Part shown: one piece after another, positions 7,994 to 63,392 of the stretch | How the letters are laid out: the number at the start of each line of letters is the position of its first letter | How positions within the stretch are numbered: the first letter of the stretch is position 1 | Source of the DNA: Parabacteroides distasonis ATCC 8503 | Lineage (GTDB): Bacteria > Bacteroidota > Bacteroidia > Bacteroidales > Tannerellaceae | Reading direction: 5' to 3' | Length of the DNA stretch: 64,000 bases | Assembly: GCF_000012845.1 (NCBI RefSeq) | Contig: NC_009615.1 | Location: 4,094,501 to 4,158,500 of the forward strand | Translations under genes and position numbers: made by a program | Notes under the pieces: generated by a model | What the model saw: only the letters and a program-made list of their open reading frames with translations | Databases searched by the model: none | Told to the model about the DNA's origin: nothing

Positions 7994-9649
7994 ATGAAAC
8001 TAAATAGAATTTTAAAATATGCCGCTGTATCGGCTTTGGTAGTATCTACCGGTGTTATGACCATGGGCTGTACAGATAATTTTGAAAATTTAAATACTGA
8101 TCCCTATGAGGTTGATCCAGATGAACTTCCGTTCTCTGCCCAATTTAAGGAGCCATTCTCTTATGTCTATGCTCCGCAGCAGAACTTGTTCCAATATTGC
8201 TTCAACCTAAATATTGATTTGTTTAGCGGCTACTTCATGACTCCACATAACTTTAATGGTTCCGGTAATGTTGATTATGCGTTGAACCGTGGTTTCTGTG
8301 GTGGTATGTATGAGAATGTATATCTTCATATTTTCAACAATACCCGTCGTCTGATTGCTTCTTGTGATGAGCAAGGCTTAAGTGATTATGGAGCGATGAT
8401 GCGTGTCGTACAAGCTTATGCGATCCAGATGTTGACGGATGCCTATGGCCCAGTGGCCTATAGTTCTGTTATCGAAGATCCTACGGGTGGAGCTTCTTTC
8501 TCTTATGATACTCAGGAAAGTGTCTACAATGCTTTGTTTACTTTGGTGGATGAAGCGATCGCTGGATTTAAGGGAACTGCATCTGTTGCGGATATGCAAG
8601 CATTTGACTATTGGTGTAATGGTGATATCGCTTTGTGGAAGAAGGTCGCTAATCAATTGAAACTACGTTTGGCTATGCGTATCGTAAAGGTGAACCCTAC
8701 ATTGGCGAAGCAAAAAGCGGAGGAAGCCGTTCAAGGAGGCGTATTGACTTCCGCTGATCGTGATATCTTGATCAACCAAGGTTTGAGCAATGAGTTGACT
8801 CGTATGTTTGAGTGGGGTGATTGTGGAATGAATGCTAGCTTAATCACGATGTTGGAAGGTTTCAAAGATCCTCGTTTACCTTTGTATGTGACCAAGAATC
8901 AAGCGGCTGTTACTTGTGAAGATGGCTCGACAATTGAGGAGGGGACAAAGTATCTTGGTGTTCGCGGCGGATGTAACTTACCTTCTAAGCCAAATCAATG
9001 GGGTAATTTCTCTAAAGTGATTTGCACTTATACGACCGCTTTCCCTGTCATGAAAGTTGCTGAGGGTTATTTTTTACGTGCTGAAGGTGCTTTACGTGGC
9101 TGGAGCATGGGAGGTAGCGCTAAAGATCTATATGAGGAGGGCATTCGTATTTCTATCAAGAACGAATTGGCTTATAAGGGCAGTATTGCAGGTGTAACTT
9201 CTATCTCAGATGCGGAAATAGACGCTTATCTCAATGGAACCAGTGGACAGATTGACTTTGTTGACCCGGTTAAGGCGGAAAATAGTATAAAGGCGATGAA
9301 TACACTAGGTGTTAAATGGGACGAAGGTGCTAGTAAGGAGGAGAAGTTGCAACGTATCATTACTCAGAAATGGATCGCTAACTTCCCATTGTCTTGTGAG
9401 GCTTGGGCTGAATACCGTCGTACAGGCTATCCTAAATTATTCCCGAATCGTGTAAACTTGAGTAACGGTGATATCAATACTAACGAACAAGTTCGTCGCT
9501 TGATCTACTCAGATACGGAAATTAACACCAATAATGCGGAATTACAGAAAGGCATCGAGCTGCTGAATCAAGAGAATACGGGTTCGATCTCTGGTGATAA
9601 AGGTGGTACTCATGTATGGTGGGACAAAGCTGGTGTAGGTAATTTCTAA
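7994..9649 (+). CDS. SusD/RagB-family surface glycan-binding lipoprotein (PUL 1)
   Basis: A 551-residue lipoprotein that caps the SusC barrel and binds the oligosaccharide on the cell surface. The N-terminus has a hydrophobic signal followed by a lipobox ending MGC (Cys about residue 26) and then an acidic/Asn-rich start, as is common for surface-exposed lipoproteins. Helical TPR-like segments with LTDAYGPVAYS and the late motif VAEGYFLRAEGALRGW fit the SusD/SusD-like (SusD_RagB) family. It is co-transcribed with susC (16-base gap). A hairpin terminator lies 40 bases downstream, which would separate or attenuate expression of the GH2 gene. Confidence 0.93.
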   Translation: MKLNRILKYAAVSALVVSTGVMTMGCTDNFENLNTDPYEVDPDELPFSAQFKEPFSYVYAPQQNLFQYCFNLNIDLFSGYFMTPHNFNGSGNVDYALNRGFCGGMYENVYLHIFNNTRRLIASCDEQGLSDYGAMMRVVQAYAIQMLTDAYGPVAYSSVIEDPTGGASFSYDTQESVYNALFTLVDEAIAGFKGTASVADMQAFDYWCNGDIALWKKVANQLKLRLAMRIVKVNPTLAKQKAEEAVQGGVLTSADRDILINQGLSNELTRMFEWGDCGMNASLITMLEGFKDPRLPLYVTKNQAAVTCEDGSTIEEGTKYLGVRGGCNLPSKPNQWGNFSKVICTYTTAFPVMKVAEGYFLRAEGALRGWSMGGSAKDLYEEGIRISIKNELAYKGSIAGVTSISDAEIDAYLNGTSGQIDFVDPVKAENSIKAMNTLGVKWDEGASKEEKLQRIITQKWIANFPLSCEAWAEYRRTGYPKLFPNRVNLSNGDINTNEQVRRLIYSDTEINTNNAELQKGIELLNQENTGSISGDKGGTHVWWDKAGVGNF

Positions 9650-17449: not shown

Positions 17450-17505
17450 GATATATGTTTACGGAAATGCAAATAAGGAAGGTGTTTTAGGGGAATAATG
17501 TAACA

Positions 17506-17588
17506 ATGCCCATTGTAAGGTTGTTAGGATGGGCAGTATAAGGAGCTTACGATGGGCATTGTTGCGACCTTATAATGCCTATTGGCGG
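17506..17588. repeat. Intergenic array C: four words at an exact 23-bp period
   Basis: Words ATGCCCATT, ATGGGCAGT, ATGGGCATT and ATGCCTATT start at 17506, 17529, 17552 and 17575, exactly 23 bases apart. The core ATG-SSS-AT is a quasi-palindrome, so units 2 and 3 read as the reverse complement of unit 1. A second word (AAGG or its complement CCTT) recurs between the copies. The array lies between the promoter of the GSCFA operon and the terminator of the peptidase gene. Four other intergenic arrays share the geometry but not the word. Confidence 0.8.
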
Positions 17589-25700: not shown

Positions 25701-25830
25701 AAAAACATTAAATTAAAAGTTAATAATGTGCTTCCCGAAGGAAGAATACACACAAGCGGTTTGCTTTGTTATTCGACAGCAATATTAATAGGTCTTAACG
25801 AATTGAAGAGTGCTTTGAAATACCGAAGAA

Positions 25831-25888
25831 GTGTCATGAAATGCATATGGCAGATTATGATACTCTTTTGGTAGATTATGACACTATT
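25831..25888. repeat. Intergenic array E: three words at exact 21-bp period upstream of susC
   Basis: ATGA words start at 25836, 25857 and 25878, 21 bases apart. On the minus (transcribed) strand the first two units read GTGTCATAATCTACCA and GTATCATAATCTGCCA, nearly identical; the third is degenerate but ends in GACAC, so the array is bounded by GTGTCAT and ATGACAC. It lies 131-184 bases upstream of susC. AraC-type DNA-binding domains often bind direct repeats two helical turns apart, and the hybrid regulator encoded next door ends in such a domain, so this is a good operator candidate. Confidence 0.75.
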
Positions 25889-25902
25889 TAGGAATCAATG
25901 AT

Positions 25903-28900
25903 TTATGCCTCTTTTGTGCGGTATTCTTTAGGAGTCATGTTATATTTACGGGCAAACTCCCTATAGAAGTATGATTTGTTAGAAATCCCTACATTATAAA
26001 TAATTTCCTGAACGCTCATGTTGGTATTTACGAGTAATTGCGCTGCATAGTTTAACCTATAATCCTTTATAAAATCACTCGGCGTCATGGTAGATATTTT
26101 CTTGAAACGGCGATATAAGATGCGGGTGTTTATATTCAGTGCGTCCGCTACCAGCTCGGGACCGAGTCCTTCCTTGCTGACATTTTCTTTGATGATAGCG
26201 GTTACGGCGTCAAGGAATTCCTTGTCTTCTTGATGTAATAATTGCCCTTCCGTATATTGATAAGCACTTTCCGGAGAATAGAAATACTCTTTTAATTCTC
26301 TTTGATTTGTCATCAATCGGTTCACGACGGATAGGAGAACTGTTGGCGAGAAAGGCTTGGTTAGATAGGCATCCGCTCCTATATTAAGTCCTGCCGCTTG
26401 CTCTTGGTCTGATATTTTGGCAGATACGATAATAAGCGGGATATGACGGGTATATCTATTTTCCTTGATAAGAGAGATCAATTCCAATCCGTCGATATTA
26501 GGCATCATGATATCGGTGATGATAAGGGAGGGAGTGTATTGCTTGAGGAATTCCAGAGCCTCCTCCGCATTATAAGCTTCCTGAACCTGATATTCGGAAG
26601 AGAGGGTTTCCGTGATTAGCCAGACGATGTCTTTATGATCGTCGATAACGAGTATCATCGGTTTATCTTCCGTCTCTTTTTGTGCCGTATGTGAGATTTG
26701 CGGCTTTTGTATATCCGTGTTTGGGGAAGGAAGCGATACGGGAATATCTTCGTCTATCGTGTCGTCTGAGCTCTCCTCTACGATGCCAAAAGGTAAGGTA
26801 ACTGTAAATTCAGCATATTGGCCGACCTCACTCTCTATGTCGATTTTACCACCTAAGGATTGTACGAGGCTGTGGCAGATAAATAAGCCGAGGCCATTCC
26901 GTGCCGTATTTTGCCTGTTATCGTCGTTATCCATCGTGCCAAGGATACGATATCGGTCGAAAATATTTTGCATGTCTGCCTCCTCGATTCCTTTGCCGGT
27001 GTTGTAAACTTTAAGGACGAGGAAGTTCTCCTCCTCATGTAAGGAGATACGAACCGTGCCCCCGTCTTCCGTATACTTAAATGCGTTGGAAATCAGATTT
27101 GCTAGGATCTTCTTGAAATAGACGGAATCCGTATTCCAATAAAGCTCTTTGGGAGCATCGATCTTGAATTGGATTTGGTGTTGCTCGGATAGTGGGTAAA
27201 ACCATTCGAATTGAGTTCGCAAAAGAGAGGATACGGATACTCTTCGGATGTGCGTATGACTGAATCCAGCGTCTTCCGCTTTCCGGAAATCAAGGATTTC
27301 TTGGATAAGCCCGTTCAGTTCCTCTACATTTTCCCGGAGGACTGAAGTGTATTTTTCTAATGTCTTGTCTTTTGAGGTGGCGGCATAGGCTTGGATATAA
27401 TTCTCCACGCCATTGATCAAGGTAAGCGGGGTACATAACTCATGCGTGATATGGGTAAAGAAATTCAGCTTAGACTCGTATAGCTTCTCTTTTTGCTCCT
27501 CCTTGATCTTGTCTGCTATTTGTTTCTGTTTCTTTAGTATTTGGTAATGGATGCGATAGATGGCAATGATGATTAAAACCGTACCGATAAAAAGATACGT
27601 GAAAATAGCTAATGAGCTTAGATAAATAGGAGGTAATACCTTGATAGGTAGGGTGTATTCTTTTGCCGACGAATCAATGACATCGTTACGATAACGGACT
27701 TTCAGCAAGTATTCCCCGTACGGGAGGTTCATGAAAGTTACCTTGTTTGTCTTTTGCAATTTTTCCCAAGAGGAATTATAGTTGACCAACTGATACGAAT
27801 ACTCGTAATTCTCCCCGTTGATGTAATCCGGAGCGACGAACGCAATCGTTAACGATTGCACATCAGCCGGAACCGTTACACCGTTCCGGCTGATGTCCTT
27901 ATATAATGGAAGGATTTGTTTATCCATTTGCAACTCGAAGAAACTTAATTCGGGTTGATAGGTATGCTCCGGCTCCGTTTGTTTATTTACCCAGACTAAT
28001 CCGTTGATGCCTCCAAAGAATAAACGCTCGGAGTATGGGCATTTCCAATAAGCGTCATCAGAGAATTCCGTGACGCTAAAATAAGGTTGATGATAATTAT
28101 GGAAAAAATTATTCCGGGGATTATATTTGGTGAGACCTTTATTGGTGCTTAACCAGATACAGCTATCATTCCCCTCATGAATGCCATGGATCATGTCGTT
28201 TGCGATCCCGTTGCTTTTATCGAATTGGCGTAAATGTATCTTTCCTCTTTTAAATTTAATCCGGGTAAGTCCGGAGCTGGCGCCTGCATAGAAAGTAGAA
28301 TCCTCGGTCTGGCATACAGATAACACGTCTCCAATGGCCGGATTCCTTAAATTGTTGGTTTGCAGGAACTCATATTTCTGGTTGAATATGTTAAAACTAA
28401 TAACCCCATAACCGCCACGACTCCCGAGAAATAAGGTCGAGTCGTTATCATATATCATGGATTGAATCTCTTTGCAGGTATTCTCCCCGTTTTTTAGCGG
28501 GAAGGTTTGTATCTTACTGATTGTAGGCGTGACTTTATCCATACGTAAAGTAACCTTCAGTAATCCGTTGCCGGTTGTCGCCAACCATAATGTCGAGTCG
28601 TTTACCTCACAAATAGAATGGATATAGCGGATAGGGGGAGTGTCCTCTTGCTGCGGGATCGTCTTTATTCGATTTTCTTTATAAGAATAATAACAGAGCC
28701 CCGGGCCTTCCGTACCGATCCAGATACAAGGATGGAATTCGCTTCTCTGGAAGCTATATACCCGGTTGCTGGATAATCCGTCGGCGGTGGTGAAATGCGT
28801 GATAGCGCTTTGTGGAATCGCCTTTTTGTTTGGGTAAGTGTCATAGGCTTGTATCCGGACAATTCCGTCTCCTTTTGTCCCGAACCAAAGGGATCGATCA

Positions 28901-40453: not shown

Positions 40454-40475
40454 TCATGTAATGCCCTTTGAAAAA

Positions 40476-40537
40476 ACATGTACGTGTTTCGTGAAAAACA
40501 CGTACGTGTTTCCGAAAAAAGACGTACGTGTTTTTTT
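40476..40537. repeat. Intergenic array B: three TACGTG words at exact 22-bp period
   Basis: TACGTGTTT starts at 40481, 40503 and 40525. The 22-base units have the form CGTGTTT, six bases, AAACACG, TA; at the junction of units the 16-base AAACACGTACGTGTTT (40496-40511) is a perfect palindrome. The array lies between the 3' ends of two convergent genes, just before their shared terminator, so a promoter operator role is unlikely here. Confidence 0.82.
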
Positions 40538-47821: not shown

Positions 47822-49159
47822 TCACCACTCAATAAACTTACCTCTTTGCCTGCGTTTCTCCAACTCCTCTTGCAGATAGCGTTGGCGATCCTTGGCGATG
47901 TAACGACGGGCGAAGATATTGGGGACGGCTACGCCTAAAGAGATACAAAGGATGATGAGGGCGGAGTTAATACCATTGGAGAAGGCGTTCGTAACCTCGC
48001 CGATCACCCCGTGAAGGTTGATAAAACCTAATAACGAGCGATACATCAATACTCCCGGGATCATTGGGATAACAGAAGGGATCGTCAATACATGGTTCGG
48101 TACATGGAACCAATGAACCGCTTTCACTGCGATCAGGCTGACAACGAAACTTCCCATAAACGAGCCGATCACGGGACCATAGCCCAGCTCGAAGTTCACG
48201 AAGTTCCGGATGCATACGGCGATAATACCGCCTAAAGCAACCACCCATAATAAACGGCGTTGGATATTGAATATCATAGAGAAACCAACGGCGGATATGG
48301 CAGCCGCTATCGCATATACGTAATACGGATCATGCGGGACCATGCTTAGTTCGCTGAATTTATGGTCGATCGATACGTCGTTCATCACGAGCAGGCGCAA
48401 GGCGAAAGCGATACCGAAAGTCATTGCCGCTACCATCATCACCGTGTTTGCGGCACGGGTAATACCGACCAGCAAGTGATTATCGATCATATCGTCTACA
48501 AAATTAATCAAAGGTACGCCCGGTACGATGAATAGGGCACAAGCCAGTAACGGGAGATACGGAGTACCGGATATTCCCAGAAAAGATGAGGCATATGCTA
48601 GACAAGTACAAATAAAGGCGGCAAGAGCGATCCCCATGTAGGCGTTAAGGCCAGCCTCTACACAACGGGCACGCACCCTGAAACCGATAAAAGTACAGAT
48701 CGAGGTTAACAAGAACGCGATCCAGTCTCCTCCAAATAACTTACAGAAACCTCCACAAGCGAATCCTGCTCCGATCGCTACGATATAAGGGGTATAATTC
48801 CGAGGTTGGCGAACTATCTTTTCCAATTCTTCCTCATATTTATCCAAGGAATAATCTTGCTCGATCGCCCGCCATGAGAGCTTACTGACCTGTGATATCG
48901 TTGTCATGTTAATACCATGTTTCTCGCATTTCTGGAATTTGGAGAATGAGTTTCGCTCATCGCTTACGTTCACCATAATCATGGTCCATCGGATATCGAT
49001 ATGCAATTTCTCCTCGGGAATCCCCATAAAGGCGGCCACCCGCTTCATGTTGCGCTCGATACGGTTCGTATCGGCGGCACTTTCCATCAACAATTTTCCC
49101 GTACGGAGCAAAAGATCCAATTTGCGCCGTAATAACAATACTTCCTTGTCTGTCATCAT
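47822..49159 (-). CDS. ThrE-family threonine/serine exporter-like protein under a cobalamin riboswitch
   Basis: A 445-residue fusion of the two ThrE halves. The N-terminal soluble part (LLLRTGKLLMESAADTNRIERNMKRVA, about 10-105) and five TM helices form the DUF1212 module; the C-terminal half (from about 280) forms the ThrE_2 module with VPSVIPMIPGVLMYRSLL. ThrE proteins export threonine and serine. The unusual point is the leader: a cobalamin riboswitch lies 65 bases upstream on the same strand, so expression should fall when B12 is plentiful. Threonine is the precursor of the aminopropanol arm of cobalamin, but an exporter for that is odd; a corrinoid-related substrate cannot be excluded. 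An ATG three bases later is an alternative start. Confidence 0.88.
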   Translation of the reverse strand: MMTDKEVLLLRRKLDLLLRTGKLLMESAADTNRIERNMKRVAAFMGIPEEKLHIDIRWTMIMVNVSDERNSFSKFQKCEKHGINMTTISQVSKLSWRAIEQDYSLDKYEEELEKIVRQPRNYTPYIVAIGAGFACGGFCKLFGGDWIAFLLTSICTFIGFRVRARCVEAGLNAYMGIALAAFICTCLAYASSFLGISGTPYLPLLACALFIVPGVPLINFVDDMIDNHLLVGITRAANTVMMVAAMTFGIAFALRLLVMNDVSIDHKFSELSMVPHDPYYVYAIAAAISAVGFSMIFNIQRRLLWVVALGGIIAVCIRNFVNFELGYGPVIGSFMGSFVVSLIAVKAVHWFHVPNHVLTIPSVIPMIPGVLMYRSLLGFINLHGVIGEVTNAFSNGINSALIILCISLGVAVPNIFARRYIAKDRQRYLQEELEKRRQRGKFIEW

Positions 49160-49223
49160 CTTCTTTTTGTTCTTATATATGTGTTCTCTATACCCTAACC
49201 CACGAGGATATGAATCTTAAATG

Positions 49224-49392
49224 AATGGCAGGTCTTCTGACTGACTCCCATTCTAATGCCTTCCCGGCTTACTAGGCCAGTGGCGAAAGTAGTATTAGAA
49301 TGTTAAAGGAGTTTCACAGCAGCGGGACTGTACCGGATTCTCACCGGATTCCCTTTTAATCCGTATGCCCGAACGAGCGTACGGAACCAATT
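49224..49392 (-). ncRNA. Cobalamin (AdoCbl) riboswitch upstream of the ThrE-like gene
   Basis: On the minus strand the order is GGGAATCCGGTGAGAATCCG, then ACAGTCCCGCTGCTGTGA, then GCCACTGG, GGGAAGGC and a closing AGAAGACCTGCC (B12 box). These are the conserved blocks of the cobalamin riboswitch core. A promoter -7 element lies just upstream (49399-49406), and the ThrE-like gene starts 65 bases downstream. Confidence 0.93.
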
Positions 49393-49398
49393 CGGATG

Positions 49399-49406
49399 CA
49401 AAGGTA
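49399..49406 (-). promoter_or_regulatory. -7 element of the riboswitch-ThrE transcript
   Basis: TACCTTTG on the minus strand immediately upstream of the riboswitch matches TAnnTTTG, showing that the riboswitch belongs to the ThrE-like transcript. Confidence 0.6.
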
Positions 49407-49500
49407 TGAAATCATGCTAATATCCGTCTCGCTTCAGTAAGAATAATTATCCGGATACTTATATATTCTTTGTTGAATGCGCTTCTATTCTATAAATCAA

Positions 49501-49566
49501 GACGTGGTCTGTATAAATCACGCCGTGGATTTTATAAACCACGCCGTGGTTTGTACAGACCACGTT
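49501..49566. repeat. Intergenic array A: three CGTGG-N10-CCACG palindromes at exact 21-bp period
   Basis: CGTGG starts at 49503, 49524 and 49545, and the matching right arms CACG start at 49519, 49540 and 49561, all 21 bases apart. Each unit is a 20-base inverted repeat plus one spacer base, with a TGTATA/TTATA/TGTACA-like centre. The array is the cleanest of the five in the window. It lies about 95 bases upstream of the ThrE promoter and about 105 bases downstream of the nrdG stop. Confidence 0.85.
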
Positions 49567-49672
49567 GAAAATTGAGGAATAGATGCTGATGCAATTCTCT
49601 TTATATATAAGAGAACGGATGTTTATTTCTTATTCCGTACAAGATTTTATGCATGTGTGTGCCTTAAAAGCC

Positions 49673-50173
49673 TTAAATAAAAGGATCGTACTTGTATTTT
49701 ACGATTTCCTTTTTATTTAAAGAAGCTTGTACGTCAATTAACCGTTGGTTGCTGCTTCCCCGGAATAAAAGGCTCTCATCCCGAAGGGTTTGTTTGTAGC
49801 GCCCATCTACCAATACGTCGATATAGGATAATAAGGCGGCTTGTGCCGGGTTCTTTATCAGGTCCTCGAATTTATATCCCGTGTAGCACCAGATCGTCTT
49901 TTGGCTTTTTTCCTTGATCGCCTTGGCTACCTCGGTGAAGCCTTCCGGCTGGAACATGGGATCTCCACCACTGAAGGTGACGTTGGCGAACTCGTCAGCC
50001 AGCACTTTCTCCACGATCTCTTCCGTTCTTACTTTCTTTCCTTTATGGATGTCCCATGATTCGGGGTTGTGGCAACCCGGGCATTTGTTCGGGCAACCCG
50101 CCGCATAGATGGCGGTCCGGAATCCCGGACCGTCTACGGTGGTATCTTCGATGATATCTATGATGGACAACAT
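49673..50173 (-). CDS. nrdG: Anaerobic ribonucleotide reductase activating protein
   Basis: A 166-residue radical SAM protein that installs the glycyl radical on NrdD. The cluster motif is in AAGCPNKCPGCHNPESWD (about 29-46), preceded by EDTTVDGPGFRTAIY and followed by VTFSGGDPMFQPEGF, the NrdG signature set. It is 33 bases downstream of nrdD, separated by a short AATTGAAAATTG repeat. Confidence 0.96.
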   Translation of the reverse strand: MLSIIDIIEDTTVDGPGFRTAIYAAGCPNKCPGCHNPESWDIHKGKKVRTEEIVEKVLADEFANVTFSGGDPMFQPEGFTEVAKAIKEKSQKTIWCYTGYKFEDLIKNPAQAALLSYIDVLVDGRYKQTLRDESLLFRGSSNQRLIDVQASLNKKEIVKYKYDPFI

Positions 50174-50206
50174 GGTAATTGAAAATTGAAAATTGACAAT
50201 TGAAAA
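50174..50206. repeat. AATTGAAAATTG-type intergenic repeat (copy 2)
   Basis: Three tandem AATTGAAAATTG-like words occupy the whole 33-base gap between nrdD and nrdG. They are the same word family as the repeats at 1963-2047 and 56077-56145, here in one orientation only. Confidence 0.7.
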
Positions 50207-52414
50207 TTAGTTGTGGGTGATGCGGTCGTTCAGCTCGGATAGCTTGGCGTTGTTCCAACGGTCGGTGGTTCCTACCAAGTAACCGGTGATGCGTTGAAGT
50301 TTGTCCAAGTGTTTGCTGCCGCATTTCGGGCAGGCTTCCAGATTCGGGGTGGAGTTCTCGTAGCCACAATCCAGACAACGGTTACGATTATGGTTTACGG
50401 AACCGTATCCGATATTGTATTTATCCATCATATCCACGACACGCATGATCGCTTCGGGGTTATGGGTAGCGTCGCCATCCATCTCTACGTAAAAGATATG
50501 GCCACCACGAGTCAAATCATGATAAGGAGCTTCCACTTCGGCTTTATGACGGGCACTGCACTTATAATATACCGGGACGTGATTAGAGTTCGTATAATAA
50601 TCCCGATCCGTGATACCGGGGAGCGATCCGAACTTCTTACGATCTTTTCCCGTGAACTTGCCGGACAAGCCTTCTGCCGGAGTTGCCAGTACGCTATAAT
50701 TGTGTTGATATTGCTCAGAGAATTGGTTGGCACGATCCCGGATATACGTAACGATCCTTATGCCTAAGGCTTGCGAATCCTCATCTTCGCCATGATGCTT
50801 CCCGGTAAGGGCTACCAAGCATTCGGCCAGTCCGATAAAGCCGATACCCAAGGTGCCTTGGTTGATAACGGAGGCAATCGAATCGTTGGGCTTCAACTTC
50901 TCCGAGCCTAACCACAAGGAAGACATCAACAACGGGAATTGCTTTGCGTAAGCGGTTTTCTGGAACTCCATACGCTCATGCAACTGACGAGCCGTAAGTT
51001 CCAGCATATGATCCAGTTTCGCGAAAAACAGGGCGATACGCTCTTCCTTGTTCTCCACTTGCATGCACTCGATAGCCAATCGTACGATATTGATCGTCGA
51101 GAAAGAGAGATTACCTCGTCCGATAGAAGTCTTCGGTCCGAAACGATTCTCGAACACACGGGTACGGCATCCCATGGTCGCTACCTCGTGGATATAGCGC
51201 TGAGGATCGTCCGCTTTCCAATCCTCGCTTTGGTTGAAGGTCGCGTCGAGATTCAAGAAGTTCGGGAAGAAACGACGGGCGGTGACCTTGCAGGCCAATT
51301 GGTAAAGATCGTAGTTGCGGTCTTCCGGCAGATAACTTACGCCTCGTTTCTTTTTCCATATCTGGATCGGGAAGATAGCGGTTTCGCCGTTACCTACGCC
51401 TCTGTAAGTACTTTTTAATAACTCCCGGATGATGCAACGACCTTCCGCCGAGGTGTCGGTCCCGTAATTGATGGAGCTGAATACCACTTGGTTGCCTCCA
51501 CGGGAATGGATCGTGTTCATATTATGGATAAAAGCCTCCATCGATTGGTGTACACGGCTTACCGTGCGGTTGATGGCATGTTGTATGACGCGTCTATCAC
51601 CGCTTAATCCATCCAAGGTCTGTGTCTGGTAATCGTCGATAGGCTTATTATATAAGTGGGAGAAATCCTGTCCGTATAAATCCTCTAAGGTCTTTACTTC
51701 CTCGATAAAGCTATTACGTACGTAAGGAGCTAGGTAGAAGTCGAACGCCGGTATCGCCTGTCCGCCATGCATCTCGTTTTGGGCGGTCTCTAGAGAGATA
51801 CAGCCAAGGATGCTTGCGGTTTCGATTCGTTTAGCCGGACGTGATTCGCCATGACCGGCGGAGAACCCGTATTTCAGGATGCGATCCAACGGGTGTTGTA
51901 CGCAGGTCAAGCTTTTAGTCGGATAATAATCTTTATCATGAATATGGAGATAGTTGTTTGATACGGCTTCCTTGACCTCTTCGCTCAATAAATAGTCATC
52001 GACAAACGGCTTGGTGGTCTCGCTGGAGAATTTCATCATCATGCCGGCGGGTGTATCGGCGTTCATATTCGCGTTCTCACGGGTGATGTCATTGGATTTG
52101 ATATTGATAATCTCCAAGAACATATCCCGTGTTTTCGCCTTGCGGGCTACGCTTCGCTGATTTCGGTAAGCGATATATTTCTGCGCTACGTCCTTCCGGC
52201 TACTGGCCATCAATTCCAGTTCCACGGCATCTTGAATCGCCTCTACGGTCATTTGAGGTTCTCCCTTGAATGAGATATGATCTGTGATCTGGCGAATCAG
52301 TTGCATATCTTCTCCCTTGTCTGTATGCAACATGGCTTTACGGATAGCGGTTACTATTTTCTCCTCGTTGAAGCCAACGATACGCCCGTCCCGTTTAACA
52401 ACTGTCTGTATCAT
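50207..52414 (-). CDS. nrdD: Anaerobic ribonucleoside-triphosphate reductase
   Basis: Class III glycyl-radical reductase making dNTPs from NTPs without oxygen. The 735 residues include an N-terminal ATP-cone (VVKRDGRIVGFNEEKIVTAIRKAM, about 5-95), the catalytic barrel, the C-terminal zinc ribbon (CLDCGYENSTPNLEACPKCG) and the radical glycine G711 in RITGYLVG. nrdG follows in the same operon. Two patches upstream look like halves of NrdR boxes. Confidence 0.97.
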   Translation of the reverse strand: MIQTVVKRDGRIVGFNEEKIVTAIRKAMLHTDKGEDMQLIRQITDHISFKGEPQMTVEAIQDAVELELMASSRKDVAQKYIAYRNQRSVARKAKTRDMFLEIINIKSNDITRENANMNADTPAGMMMKFSSETTKPFVDDYLLSEEVKEAVSNNYLHIHDKDYYPTKSLTCVQHPLDRILKYGFSAGHGESRPAKRIETASILGCISLETAQNEMHGGQAIPAFDFYLAPYVRNSFIEEVKTLEDLYGQDFSHLYNKPIDDYQTQTLDGLSGDRRVIQHAINRTVSRVHQSMEAFIHNMNTIHSRGGNQVVFSSINYGTDTSAEGRCIIRELLKSTYRGVGNGETAIFPIQIWKKKRGVSYLPEDRNYDLYQLACKVTARRFFPNFLNLDATFNQSEDWKADDPQRYIHEVATMGCRTRVFENRFGPKTSIGRGNLSFSTINIVRLAIECMQVENKEERIALFFAKLDHMLELTARQLHERMEFQKTAYAKQFPLLMSSLWLGSEKLKPNDSIASVINQGTLGIGFIGLAECLVALTGKHHGEDEDSQALGIRIVTYIRDRANQFSEQYQHNYSVLATPAEGLSGKFTGKDRKKFGSLPGITDRDYYTNSNHVPVYYKCSARHKAEVEAPYHDLTRGGHIFYVEMDGDATHNPEAIMRVVDMMDKYNIGYGSVNHNRNRCLDCGYENSTPNLEACPKCGSKHLDKLQRITGYLVGTTDRWNNAKLSELNDRITHN

Positions 52415-52475: not shown

Positions 52476-52676
52476 TCTTTTTGGAAAACTTTTTGCTGAT
52501 TAAATTATGTTAAGGTGTTAATTTGTAGTGTGTTGTAAAAAGTTTTGGAAAACTTTGTGTCTTGTATGATTGCTTTTGTTTTCCTTTTTGGCGATGTGAT
52601 GTGTTATAAGCTTCTCTTTGTAAAGCTTTTAAAGAACATAAGCCGGGATATATTTTTGTTTATATAAAATAATTCA

Positions 52677-52684
52677 TACTTTTG
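52677..52684 (+). promoter_or_regulatory. -7 element of the riboswitch-btuB-like transcript (R2)
   Basis: TACTTTTG just before the riboswitch at 52691 matches TAnnTTTG. The remaining part of the 510-base gap upstream is AT-rich, with a repeated TTTGGAAAACTTT word about 55 bases apart and no gene. Confidence 0.55.
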
Positions 52685-52690
52685 CCCCCG

Positions 52691-52870
52691 TTTTGGTGAT
52701 GACGTAAAACCATCCGGTTTCGTCATAAAGAGGGAATCCGGTGTGAATCCGGAGCAGTGCCCGCTACTGTAAGCTTTTGTAAAGTAGAAAACATTTCTCA
52801 TACCACTGTCTGTAAAAGACGGGAAGGTCGTTTTCTACGAGGTAAGTCAGGAAACCTGCCAAGCGTTTTT
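52691..52870 (+). ncRNA. Cobalamin riboswitch upstream of the first BtuB-like receptor
   Basis: Conserved blocks in order: GGGAATCCGGTGTGAATCCG, GCAGTGCCCGCTACTGTAAG, ACCACTG, GGGAAGGT and GTCAGGAAACCTGCC. A P1-like helix and a T-rich stretch before the RBS complete the element, which lies 57 bases before the receptor ATG. Confidence 0.95.
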
Positions 52871-52926
52871 ATTGCTGTTTTTCTCGGGGTCAGGAAAGCG
52901 GAAATATACATAATAACAAATCGTTT

Positions 52927-55143: not shown

Positions 55144-56073
55144 ATGTATAGGGGATTTTTACGATCCATGTTTGTTTGTTCACTCCTGCTTGGGTTCGCC
55201 TGTTCATTATGGGCGAAACCCGGGCGGGAGTTTTACGCTTCCGATATCCGGGAGAGCATGGAAAAGGGAGATAAGTTAGCGATCTTGATGGTACATTTCG
55301 GGAGTGCTTACCCGGAAGCTCGTACCCAAGTACTCGATGTGATGAACAAGCGTGTCAAGGAGGCTTTCCCAGACGTGGAAGTCCGGCAGGCTTATAGCGC
55401 CCGTAGCGTAGTGAGTCGGTTGAGGGCGCAAGGTGTTTGGGTTCAGTTGCCGGCGGACGCCTTGGTGGAGTTGCGTGATCAAGGGTTTACCCATGTAATT
55501 ATCCAACCGACTATCATTATAGAGGGTGTGGAGATGGAAGCGATCCGTAAAGAGGCGGAACAGCGAAAAGGTTTGTTTAAGGATTTGCGTGTAGGTAATC
55601 CCTTGTTATATGATGATGCCGATTATGAGGCGGTGATGAAAGCGGTTTCCTCACCTTCTGGAGTGACTAAAAATGGGGCTAAGTTATTGGTGGCGCACGG
55701 AACTTATCATGCCAGTAACTCGGCTTATGCGAAATTGGGGTATATGTTCCAGACCAAAGGAATGAAAGATTATTATACCGGAACCCGTGAGGGTTTCCCT
55801 ACGATCGAGAATGTAGGTGAGCAAATGCGCCAAGCCGGTCATAAGCGTGTGCAGTTGATTCCTTTTATGTTCGTACTGATTCGAGGTACGGAAAATACGG
55901 TTACGGATTTCTGGCAGAAAGGGCTACGTCAACAGGGTTTCGATGTGGATATTTATTTAAAGCCTCTAGGTGAGAATCCGGCGATCCGGTCTTTATTTAT
56001 CGATCACATCCGTTTCGCCATGAAATATAAACGGGCGACGATTTTTGATCGAAAGAAATTATATACACACTGA
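55144..56073 (+). CDS. Exported CbiK-like protein lacking a metal-binding His
   Basis: A 309-residue protein with a signal peptide (about 1-24, ending SLWAK) and the CbiK/sirohydrochlorin cobaltochelatase fold (PF06180). H185 in LLVAHGTYH and E216 in GTREGFPTIE match two of the three active-site residues of Salmonella CbiK (His145, Glu175). The third, a His in the usual AGDHAxND motif, is absent; the same place reads PFMFVLIRGTENTVTDF (about 240-256), with G248 aligned to the His. A true cobalt chelatase would be impaired; corrinoid or haem binding, or a different metal, are alternatives. It is in the riboswitch-controlled transcript of the receptor. Confidence 0.85.
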   Translation: MYRGFLRSMFVCSLLLGFACSLWAKPGREFYASDIRESMEKGDKLAILMVHFGSAYPEARTQVLDVMNKRVKEAFPDVEVRQAYSARSVVSRLRAQGVWVQLPADALVELRDQGFTHVIIQPTIIIEGVEMEAIRKEAEQRKGLFKDLRVGNPLLYDDADYEAVMKAVSSPSGVTKNGAKLLVAHGTYHASNSAYAKLGYMFQTKGMKDYYTGTREGFPTIENVGEQMRQAGHKRVQLIPFMFVLIRGTENTVTDFWQKGLRQQGFDVDIYLKPLGENPAIRSLFIDHIRFAMKYKRATIFDRKKLYTH

Positions 56074-56076
56074 ACA

Positions 56077-56145
56077 ATTGAAAATTGAGAATTGAAAATT
56101 AGTGAGTACTTACTGAACCAATTTTCAATTCTCAATTCTCAATTA
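56077..56145. repeat. AATTGAGAATTG-type inverted repeat between convergent genes (copy 3)
   Basis: Words of the form AATTGAAAATTGAGAATTG run in one orientation, then after GTGAGTACTTACTGAACC the reverse complement words follow (AATTTTCAATTCTCAATTCTC). The pair makes a long AT-rich hairpin between the 3' ends of the two CbiK-like genes and may act as a bidirectional terminator. Confidence 0.75.
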
Positions 56146-59330: not shown

Positions 59331-59458
59331 ATAGTGTTTTATTTGTACACGAAATAAAACAACAAGCCTCTATCTGGTTATGTCTCAAAAAATAAATTGA
59401 ATCGTTTTTTGTATGACACATACTTCTATCCTGGAAGCTTGATGTTATTGTAAGACTT

Positions 59459-59620
59459 TAGCAGGTATTCTGGCTCTCCTCTGGTTAGAAACCTTCCCAT
59501 TCCGACTTAGGAACAGTGGCTTTTGAACTTCTAACCAACTTCATGAGGATTACAGCTGCAGGAACAGCTCCGGATTCACACCGGATTCCCTCTCACCAAA
59601 CTATGTGATAGCTTGATTAC
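59459..59620 (-). ncRNA. Cobalamin riboswitch upstream of BtuB-like receptor 2
   Basis: On the minus strand: GAGGGAATCCGGTGTGAATC, GAGCTGTTCCTGCAGCTGTAA, GCCACTG, GGGAAGG and a final GAGCCAGAATACCTGC (B12 box). This is the standard core order. Confidence 0.95.
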
Positions 59621-59632
59621 TAAAATCGGAGG

Positions 59633-59640
59633 CAAAGATA
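59633..59640 (-). promoter_or_regulatory. -7 element of the riboswitch-btuB-like transcript (R3)
   Basis: TATCTTTG on the minus strand, right upstream of the riboswitch. The rest of the gap to 59824 is AT-rich and shows nothing else. Confidence 0.55.
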
Positions 59641-63148: not shown

Positions 63149-63156
63149 TATCTTTG
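63149..63156 (+). promoter_or_regulatory. -7 element of the riboswitch-receptor transcript (R4)
   Basis: TATCTTTG just before the riboswitch at 63160 matches TAnnTTTG. Confidence 0.55.
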
Positions 63157-63159
63157 CCA

Positions 63160-63345
63160 CCGATCAAGGTGTAACCGCTATCCGTTCCGGTAGTGGCTAG
63201 TAAAAGGGAATCCGGTGTGAATCCGGAGCTGTACCCGTAGCTGTAAGTCCTTGTAGCCCCGGCAAATCTTGTTGCCACTGCCTATCGGATAGGTGGGAAG
63301 GTAGCCGACAGAGGGTGGACGAGCCAGAAAACCTGCCATGATCTT
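63160..63345 (+). ncRNA. Cobalamin riboswitch upstream of the third receptor
   Basis: Blocks in order: GGGAATCCGGTGTGAATCCG, GAGCTGTACCCGTAGCTGTAA, GCCACTGCC, GTGGGAAGGTAG and GAGCCAGAAAACCTGCC. This is the fourth copy of the element in 14 kb; it lies 48 bases before the receptor ATG. Confidence 0.95.
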
Positions 63346-63392
63346 GTTATGCGACGTTTCGGGTGAAGACGTTGGTAAACCTAAGAATTATT

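Follow-up and report, generated by a model that had tools for sequence, protein, structure and literature searches.

Intergenic repeat arrays with a 21- to 23-bp period and many unrelated words in Parabacteroides distasonis and other Bacteroidales

Array A, a run of three near-palindromes downstream of nrdG in Parabacteroides distasonis ATCC 8503, belongs to a real class of intergenic arrays whose period is sharply limited and whose frequency is far above chance. This class combines a narrow period with many unrelated words, dispersed families and hairpin folding, and its members differ between close relatives by whole-unit steps and, at some orthologous sites, by unrelated arrays. We place moderate confidence in the reading of array A as a member of a class of short interspersed hairpin repeats that are reshaped by slippage and template switching and seeded by copying or insertion. 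Coordinates refer to the window, i.e., the whole 64,000-nt stretch of this genome (G000; 4,811,379 bases in one contig) that was analysed, and the genes in all counts are open reading frames found by a script, independent of annotation.

The coordinates of array A (49501-49566) were confirmed, with 20-base units at 49503, 49524 and 49545 and a step of exactly 21. The initial annotation had described three inverted repeats of CGTGG, ten bases and CCACG at this spacing; the spacing stands, but unit 1 reads CGTGG...TCACG with one mismatch in the outer pentamer, and dyad pairing reaches 7, 8 and 9 of 10 positions in the respective units. The array lies between nrdG and a cobalamin riboswitch, both on the minus strand, in the following setting:

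47822..49159, minus strand: gene behind the riboswitch, ThrE-like (threonine/serine exporter; NF047720 at 98.2 bits, under the curated cut-off of 550)
49210..49406, minus strand: cobalamin riboswitch (Rfam RF00174, 104 bits), downstream of array A in gene sense
49425..49634, no strand assigned: dispersed element of family A, comprising the array and common flanks with ends like CTATTC / GAATAG; its limits are drawn from the broadest BLAST matches and are not sharp
49503..49564, no strand assigned: array A, with three near-palindromes of 20 bp that start every 21 bp, folding into a single hairpin
49673..50173, minus strand: nrdG (TIGR02491, 162.7 bits), with its stop codon at 49673, 108 bp from array A
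50207..52414, minus strand: nrdD (NF005497 at 1017.5 bits; TIGR02487 at 599.9 bits)

Four cobalamin riboswitches (RF00174) cluster around nrdDG within ca. 14 kb (49210-49406 and 59443-59639 on the minus strand, 52676-52877 and 63150-63354 on the plus strand), and intergenic heptad tandem repeats of the CAATTCT / AATTGAA type are found at 1955-2048, 50177-50208 (between nrdG and nrdD) and 56071-56144 of the window. Short-period repeats like these heptads are frequent in Prevotella-type loci, too.

Four further arrays of like geometry had been noted in the window, and all four positions hold an array:

17499..17584, no strand assigned: array C, 23-bp units (ATGCCCAT or its complement ATGGGCAT) of a dispersed family, 82 bp from a stop codon
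20867..20927, no strand assigned: array D, three 22-bp units (AAAGGTNACCTTT), matched in G000 at its own place only
25809..25892, no strand assigned: array E, a weak 21-bp array whose unit is not significantly palindromic
40472..40533, no strand assigned: array B, three 22-bp units (ACACGTACGTGT) of a dispersed family, missing from the orthologous site in the relative G004

Array E (noted at 25831) is weak, with a score of 19 and a dyad p of 0.50 for its consensus unit. Within the window, the words are indeed unrelated between arrays, as had been claimed.

The evidence for one class comes from a scan for ungapped tandem repeats with periods of 10-60 in the window and in 20 stretches of 20 kb spaced evenly along G000 (together 464 kb, of which 46.9 kb are intergenic). 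Of 23 intergenic arrays, 21 had a period of 21, 22 or 23 (4, 14 and 3, respectively), with a mode of 22, compared to none of five coding arrays; with the window left out, the intergenic count was 16 of 17. Adding five more stretches gave 25 of 26, with one extra array set aside as built from shorter periods, though stretches L168-L170 had been picked around a known copy of family B so that the window and the 20 stretches form the unbiased set. At score thresholds from 14 to 24, these 26 stretches held no intergenic array at a period of 20, 24 or 31-33. Coding arrays had a period of 21-23 in 2/7 cases in G000 (one of the two being a family B copy under a called frame), 2/11 in other Parabacteroides, 4/16 in Bacteroidaceae and 6/21 in Prevotella-type genomes. 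A first-order Markov control of the scan yielded no array at any period, and neither did a base-shuffled control in the threshold scan. Since the controls are empty and the period is narrow, the claim of a class holds, and the proposal of one type of element with a common geometry and many unrelated words is borne out by the scans of G000 and other genomes. Chance or low-complexity sequence might be invoked for a case like array E, which is weak and lacks a significantly palindromic unit, but the comparison with shuffled DNA that the initial annotation had called for gave no arrays at all and rules out chance as the origin of the class, leaving this account extremely improbable.

A second mark of the 21-23 class, though not of every member, is the palindromic unit. 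We compared the circular dyad score of each consensus unit with that of shuffled units. Among 48 Parabacteroides arrays at 21-23 bp, some of which are mutually orthologous, 25 reached p < 0.05, as did 9 of 33 arrays from Bacteroidaceae and Prevotella-type loci. Among arrays of other periods, all groups taken together, 5 of 48 reached p < 0.05 and none p < 0.01. Neighbouring perfect palindromes whose words differ showed no clear peak at a 22-bp spacing.

Palindromic units might suggest operator arrays, i.e., that every palindrome binds a dimeric protein and that neighbours at about two helical turns cooperate, and the initial annotation had offered dimers stacked on one face of the helix as an example. 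Such putative binding would fit the share of palindromic units in Parabacteroides as well as the placement of family B, for which 7 of 13 placed copies lie between divergent genes (null 33%). The spacing weakens this idea: with 10.5 bp to a turn, each 22-bp step rotates by 34 degrees and each 23-bp step by 69 degrees, so that successive dimers would drift around the helix, and whole-turn spacing does not describe a class with a mode of 22 instead of 21, with period 23 also present and nothing at 31-33. Strict helical phasing is rejected on these grounds. Words and positions point the same way, given that a dozen or more unrelated words (judged by eye) occur among 25 arrays of one genome, that the word has been replaced by an unrelated array at 4 of 14 sites in the relative G023, and that family C sits at stop codons. 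Taken together, we regard operator arrays as quite unlikely.

Array A forms a single hairpin across all three units with -44.1 kcal/mol for the plus-strand RNA and -38.3 for the minus strand, or about -26 for either strand when DNA parameters were requested. Across the set, 53 of 54 folded arrays had a z below -2, with a mean of -7 (better strand versus shuffles of its own bases; L170:10226 and L280 are the same array counted twice). The hairpin also withstands divergence: 14 of 80 bases of array A differ between G000 and G023, yet the two versions fold at -41.1 and -43.8, compared to a mean of -24.6 for random mutants, none of 300 of which folded as well as the real relative. Among ten orthologous pairs, the relative beat 95% of random mutants of the G000 array in eight and the reverse held in five (p < 0.05), a test that responds alike to constraint on the whole hairpin and to conservation of the word.

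Most of the pairing stems from the shared palindromic word and not from copy-specific correction, because an exchange of whole arms between copies carried no cost for A and B and a small one for C, where the real arms were better in 16 of 24. Among 27 copies of family C, some of them orthologues, units of the same copy do pair better than swapped ones (mean -38.6 versus -34.1; 0/200), while reordering units inside copies was equally good in 21 of 200 trials.

Hairpins of such low folding energy could be RNA elements, i.e., transcribed hairpins at gene ends that act as terminators or protect mRNAs like REP/BIME sequences at 3' ends. Genomic position partly agrees with this: a stop codon is found no more than 45 bp away for 11 of the 25 arrays in the G000 stretches (null 19.5%) and for 14 of the 16 placed G000 copies of family C (2 of 18 were unplaced and left out), and 7 of the 25 arrays fall in convergent intervals (null 10%). 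But 4 of the 25 arrays and the majority of placed family B copies are found between divergent genes, a stop codon is that close in only 3 of the 13 placed copies of family B (8 of 21 were unplaced and left out), and array A itself is more than 100 bp away from the end of nrdG. No single rule of position fits the class. In addition, 26 arrays between co-directional genes showed no bias for the sense strand, which had the lower folding energy in 14 cases and the higher one in 12 (mean difference 0.1). This favours DNA over RNA as the relevant state and rejects selection on the sense-strand RNA as the main force, and we consider RNA elements a rather doubtful explanation of the class.

The word had been thought to be private to each locus, which is wrong for A, B and C: family A occupies 11 places in G000 including its own, with further places in G004, G023 and G017, array B has at least 79 and array C at least 34 matches in G000 (matches not collapsed by the script into places). 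For D and E, five genomes gave only the own orthologous places, plus a 35-bp match of E in G013. Outside families A, B and C, the G000 stretches contain 14 arrays, of which 6 match another place (partly through short matches) and 8 have no further match in the portion of G000 that was compared; overall, 17 of 25 have another place, in a set that is enriched in copies of A, B and C. These dispersed families, together with changes in unit number, support the earlier suggestion of a repeat type copied from a seed.

Dispersal of this kind would also be expected of classical MITEs, i.e., non-autonomous transposons with inverted ends that are moved by a resident transposase and would carry the repeat as cargo, as published for BrickBuilt. 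Copies of family A have common flanks outside the array, and among the matches listed for 38 genomes of the genus the region of array A was found outside G000 only in G004 and G023, and later in G017, too. The G004 site that corresponds to array B is empty. However, that single clean empty site shows no target duplication (one case, by eye), family B occurs in G017 in copies with only one or two units (L085, L089, L093), and no sharp element ends were found. Terminal inverted repeats are visible in family A (by eye) but elsewhere not separable from the palindromes of the array. The only transposase family searched for, Y1/IS200-RAYT, had no match in G000 (PF01797, Y1, TnpA-REP: 0 matches, compared to matches in 5 of 14 control genomes), which rejects a RAYT/Y1 transposase as the mover. 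Classical MITEs thus appear to us an unlikely account of the class.

Comparison with sister species reveals how these arrays change. We sought 28 orthologous sites and read 27 comparisons at 19 distinct sites (13 in G004, 14 in G023), of which 20 retain the family, frequently at a changed unit number, 4 have an unrelated array and 3 have none. Conservation, which the initial annotation had made a test of the class across strains, thus gave a mixed picture. In G004, 11 of 13 sites keep their family, while the array B site is empty and the array C site holds other sequence. In G023, 9 of 14 sites keep their family (one as a mosaic), one is without an array and four hold an unrelated one (sites D, L126:17527, L276 and C, with periods of 22, 24, 41 and 22, respectively), that at site C being inside a replaced segment of 2.1 kb. 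Two further G023 sites outside the 27 comparisons keep their family (L309 at site L118 and L295 at site L271). Sites may be re-used, since four of the five without the old family carry an array compared to 6 of 32 intervals on one G023 contig (p = 0.005), a figure of small numbers in which the case in the 2.1-kb segment is doubtful.

Where families are kept, arrays change by whole units: between G000 and G023, L262 goes from three units to one and L254 has three versus two, and in G004, L132:11589 has one fewer and L273 one more. At L276, G004 lacks two units and carries 32 bases of G000 units 3-4 in exactly inverted orientation between flanks that are 99-100% identical, and array D has two spacers that complement each other perfectly in G004 (GATAAGATC/GATCTTATC), unlike those in G000. 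For RNA stems, template switching has been described as changing both arms together and as causing inversions (PMC8794818), and by analogy the L276 inversion and the complementarity of the D spacers look like template switching.

Several arrays stand out by their architecture. L307, the G023 array at site L276, repeats a palindromic 41-bp unit (TAAGCGCTGTC...GACAGCGCTTA) about six times in tandem; this unit is roughly twice as long as usual, and G000 has family C at the site. On G023:C163 (joined minus strand, L163-L167), one 22-bp array occurs twice in inverted orientation at 8017-8077 and 26796-26856, ca. 19 kb apart, and this pair might bound a mobile or inverting segment. Finally, three long arrays switch their word part-way while keeping a constant step of 22-23 bp (L181:13125-13234, L184:21170-21464 and L237:5364-5594; by eye).

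The unit steps, the L276 inversion and the D spacers favour slippage and template switching. The element would be an array of head-to-tail units of 21-23 bp, often near-palindromic, that is able to fold into one long hairpin. In the single-stranded state during lagging-strand replication, this hairpin may cause the polymerase to slip by whole units or to switch template between the hairpin arms, so that units would be gained or lost, segments inverted and self-complementarity renewed. New places would be seeded via copying or insertion, and copies would persist where they are harmless, i.e., between genes and often beside stop codons. If the host benefits at all, for example because transcripts are ended or neighbouring genes insulated, this would be a secondary effect.

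Several results sit less easily with slippage and template switching, among them the reverse direction of the mutant test, the arm swaps, the reordering of family C units and the missing 22-bp peak of neighbouring palindromes. The unit of 21-23 bp, composed of two half-units of ca. 11 with a mode of 22, is predicted neither by these processes nor by the stacking of proteins. Furthermore, neither process is special to Bacteroidales, yet our E. coli sample is free of such arrays. A tentative possibility is a word-blind process of Bacteroidales that keeps remaking intergenic hairpin arrays: it would turn any short palindrome into a lattice of 21-23 bp made of two ca. 11-nt half-units, expand it into a species-specific family and later build another word at the same site, with a length set by a lineage-specific enzyme or footprint and not by the DNA. 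Speculatively, half-units of ca. 11 nt resemble the length of bacterial primers and one turn of an A-form helix. Tolerance of palindromes through loss of SbcCD was also considered and rejected, given that of the six Parabacteroides genomes tested, five including G000 have SbcD (TIGR00619) above the cut-off, the exception being G017.

Arrays of the class are frequent in Parabacteroides, Bacteroidaceae and Prevotella-type genomes and occur patchily in other Bacteroidales families; our samples from outside the order held none. Shares of period 21-23 among intergenic arrays and the corresponding densities, with arrays built of shorter periods set aside, are as follows:

P. distasonis: 25 of 26 arrays at period 21-23; 46 per 100 kb of intergenic DNA
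Other Parabacteroides: 23 of 28; 30 per 100 kb of intergenic DNA
Bacteroidaceae: 16 of 20; 30 per 100 kb of intergenic DNA
Prevotella-type and other named Bacteroidales: 15 of 26; 19.5 per 100 kb of intergenic DNA, with 24 arrays set aside

For P. distasonis this amounts to an array for roughly every 2 kb of intergenic DNA (25 in the 54 kb sampled). Among 40 further Bacteroidales families with one stretch each, one of which may be Bacteroidaceae, the first 20 held no array at 21-23 and the second 20 five clear ones with periods of 21-22 in two stretches (four in L372 and one in L374), besides one weak, AT-rich case in L365. The four arrays of L372 (G136, another Bacteroidales family) have a 22-bp period and fall within 20 kb, an isolated dense case. 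None were found in the intergenic DNA of four genomes from other orders of the class, of four from other classes of the phylum, or in 200 kb of E. coli.

Descriptions of short interspersed repeats usually cover one family each; here one geometric rule, a unit of 21-23 bp, spans many unrelated sequences and several genera of common gut bacteria. If the period rule is enzymatic, the responsible enzyme makes hairpin DNA of a set length; if it is selective, the arrays represent an overlooked level of function in intergenic DNA. Because arrays differ between close relatives, collections of strains can test the rule now.

MITEs are small, dispersed elements with an inverted-repeat structure that are present or absent at orthologous sites, and the arrays resemble them in all of these features. 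Unlike MITEs, they have an internal tandem lattice and also occur as one-unit copies, and neither a target duplication (at the one clean empty site) nor a partner was found. The motif PM2 of B. thetaiotaomicron has been described as a promoter motif, with no link to the arrays shown.

REP, BIME and REPIN elements, which are mobilised by RAYT (PMC3733652), are likewise short, dispersed extragenic palindromes, and family C, though not the class as a whole, shares a location at gene ends with them, but the arrays form a head-to-tail lattice at 21-23 bp in a genome without a Y1 match. That report lists CGTC-tagged REPs also in Bacteroidetes, without a dedicated transposase, and GTAG repeats in other phyla (PMC3733652). 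Hairpins maintained by template switching, as portrayed in PMC8794818, are similar with regard to arms changing together and inversions, but they are RNA stems and not tandem arrays of a fixed unit.

The initial annotation knew of no named family of this description, which is nearly right: in the open-access literature, to which our search was largely confined, BrickBuilt of Porphyromonas gingivalis was the only family to come close to the 21-23 class, with the same plan but one word (PMC4596501). This MITE with a minisatellite is intergenic and built of 1 to 22.8 spacer-free head-to-tail units of 23 nt, has leader and tail flanks and predicted long stem-loops, and occupies 19 places in one genome, with no BLASTn match outside the species according to its authors (PMC4596501). 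The two share the order, the intergenic location, a spacer-free tandem unit (ca. 23 nt there, 21-23 bp here), a variable unit number and the long predicted stem-loops, which agree with the low folding z of nearly all our arrays; the leader and tail of BrickBuilt with their small inverted ends may have a counterpart in the flanks and inverted ends of family A, though hardly in family B (by eye). The difference is that BrickBuilt, as described there, has a single word, whereas here many unrelated words in one genome have the period in common, and this holds across genera and families. As far as the open literature shows, what is new here is a period rule that holds across many words and genera.
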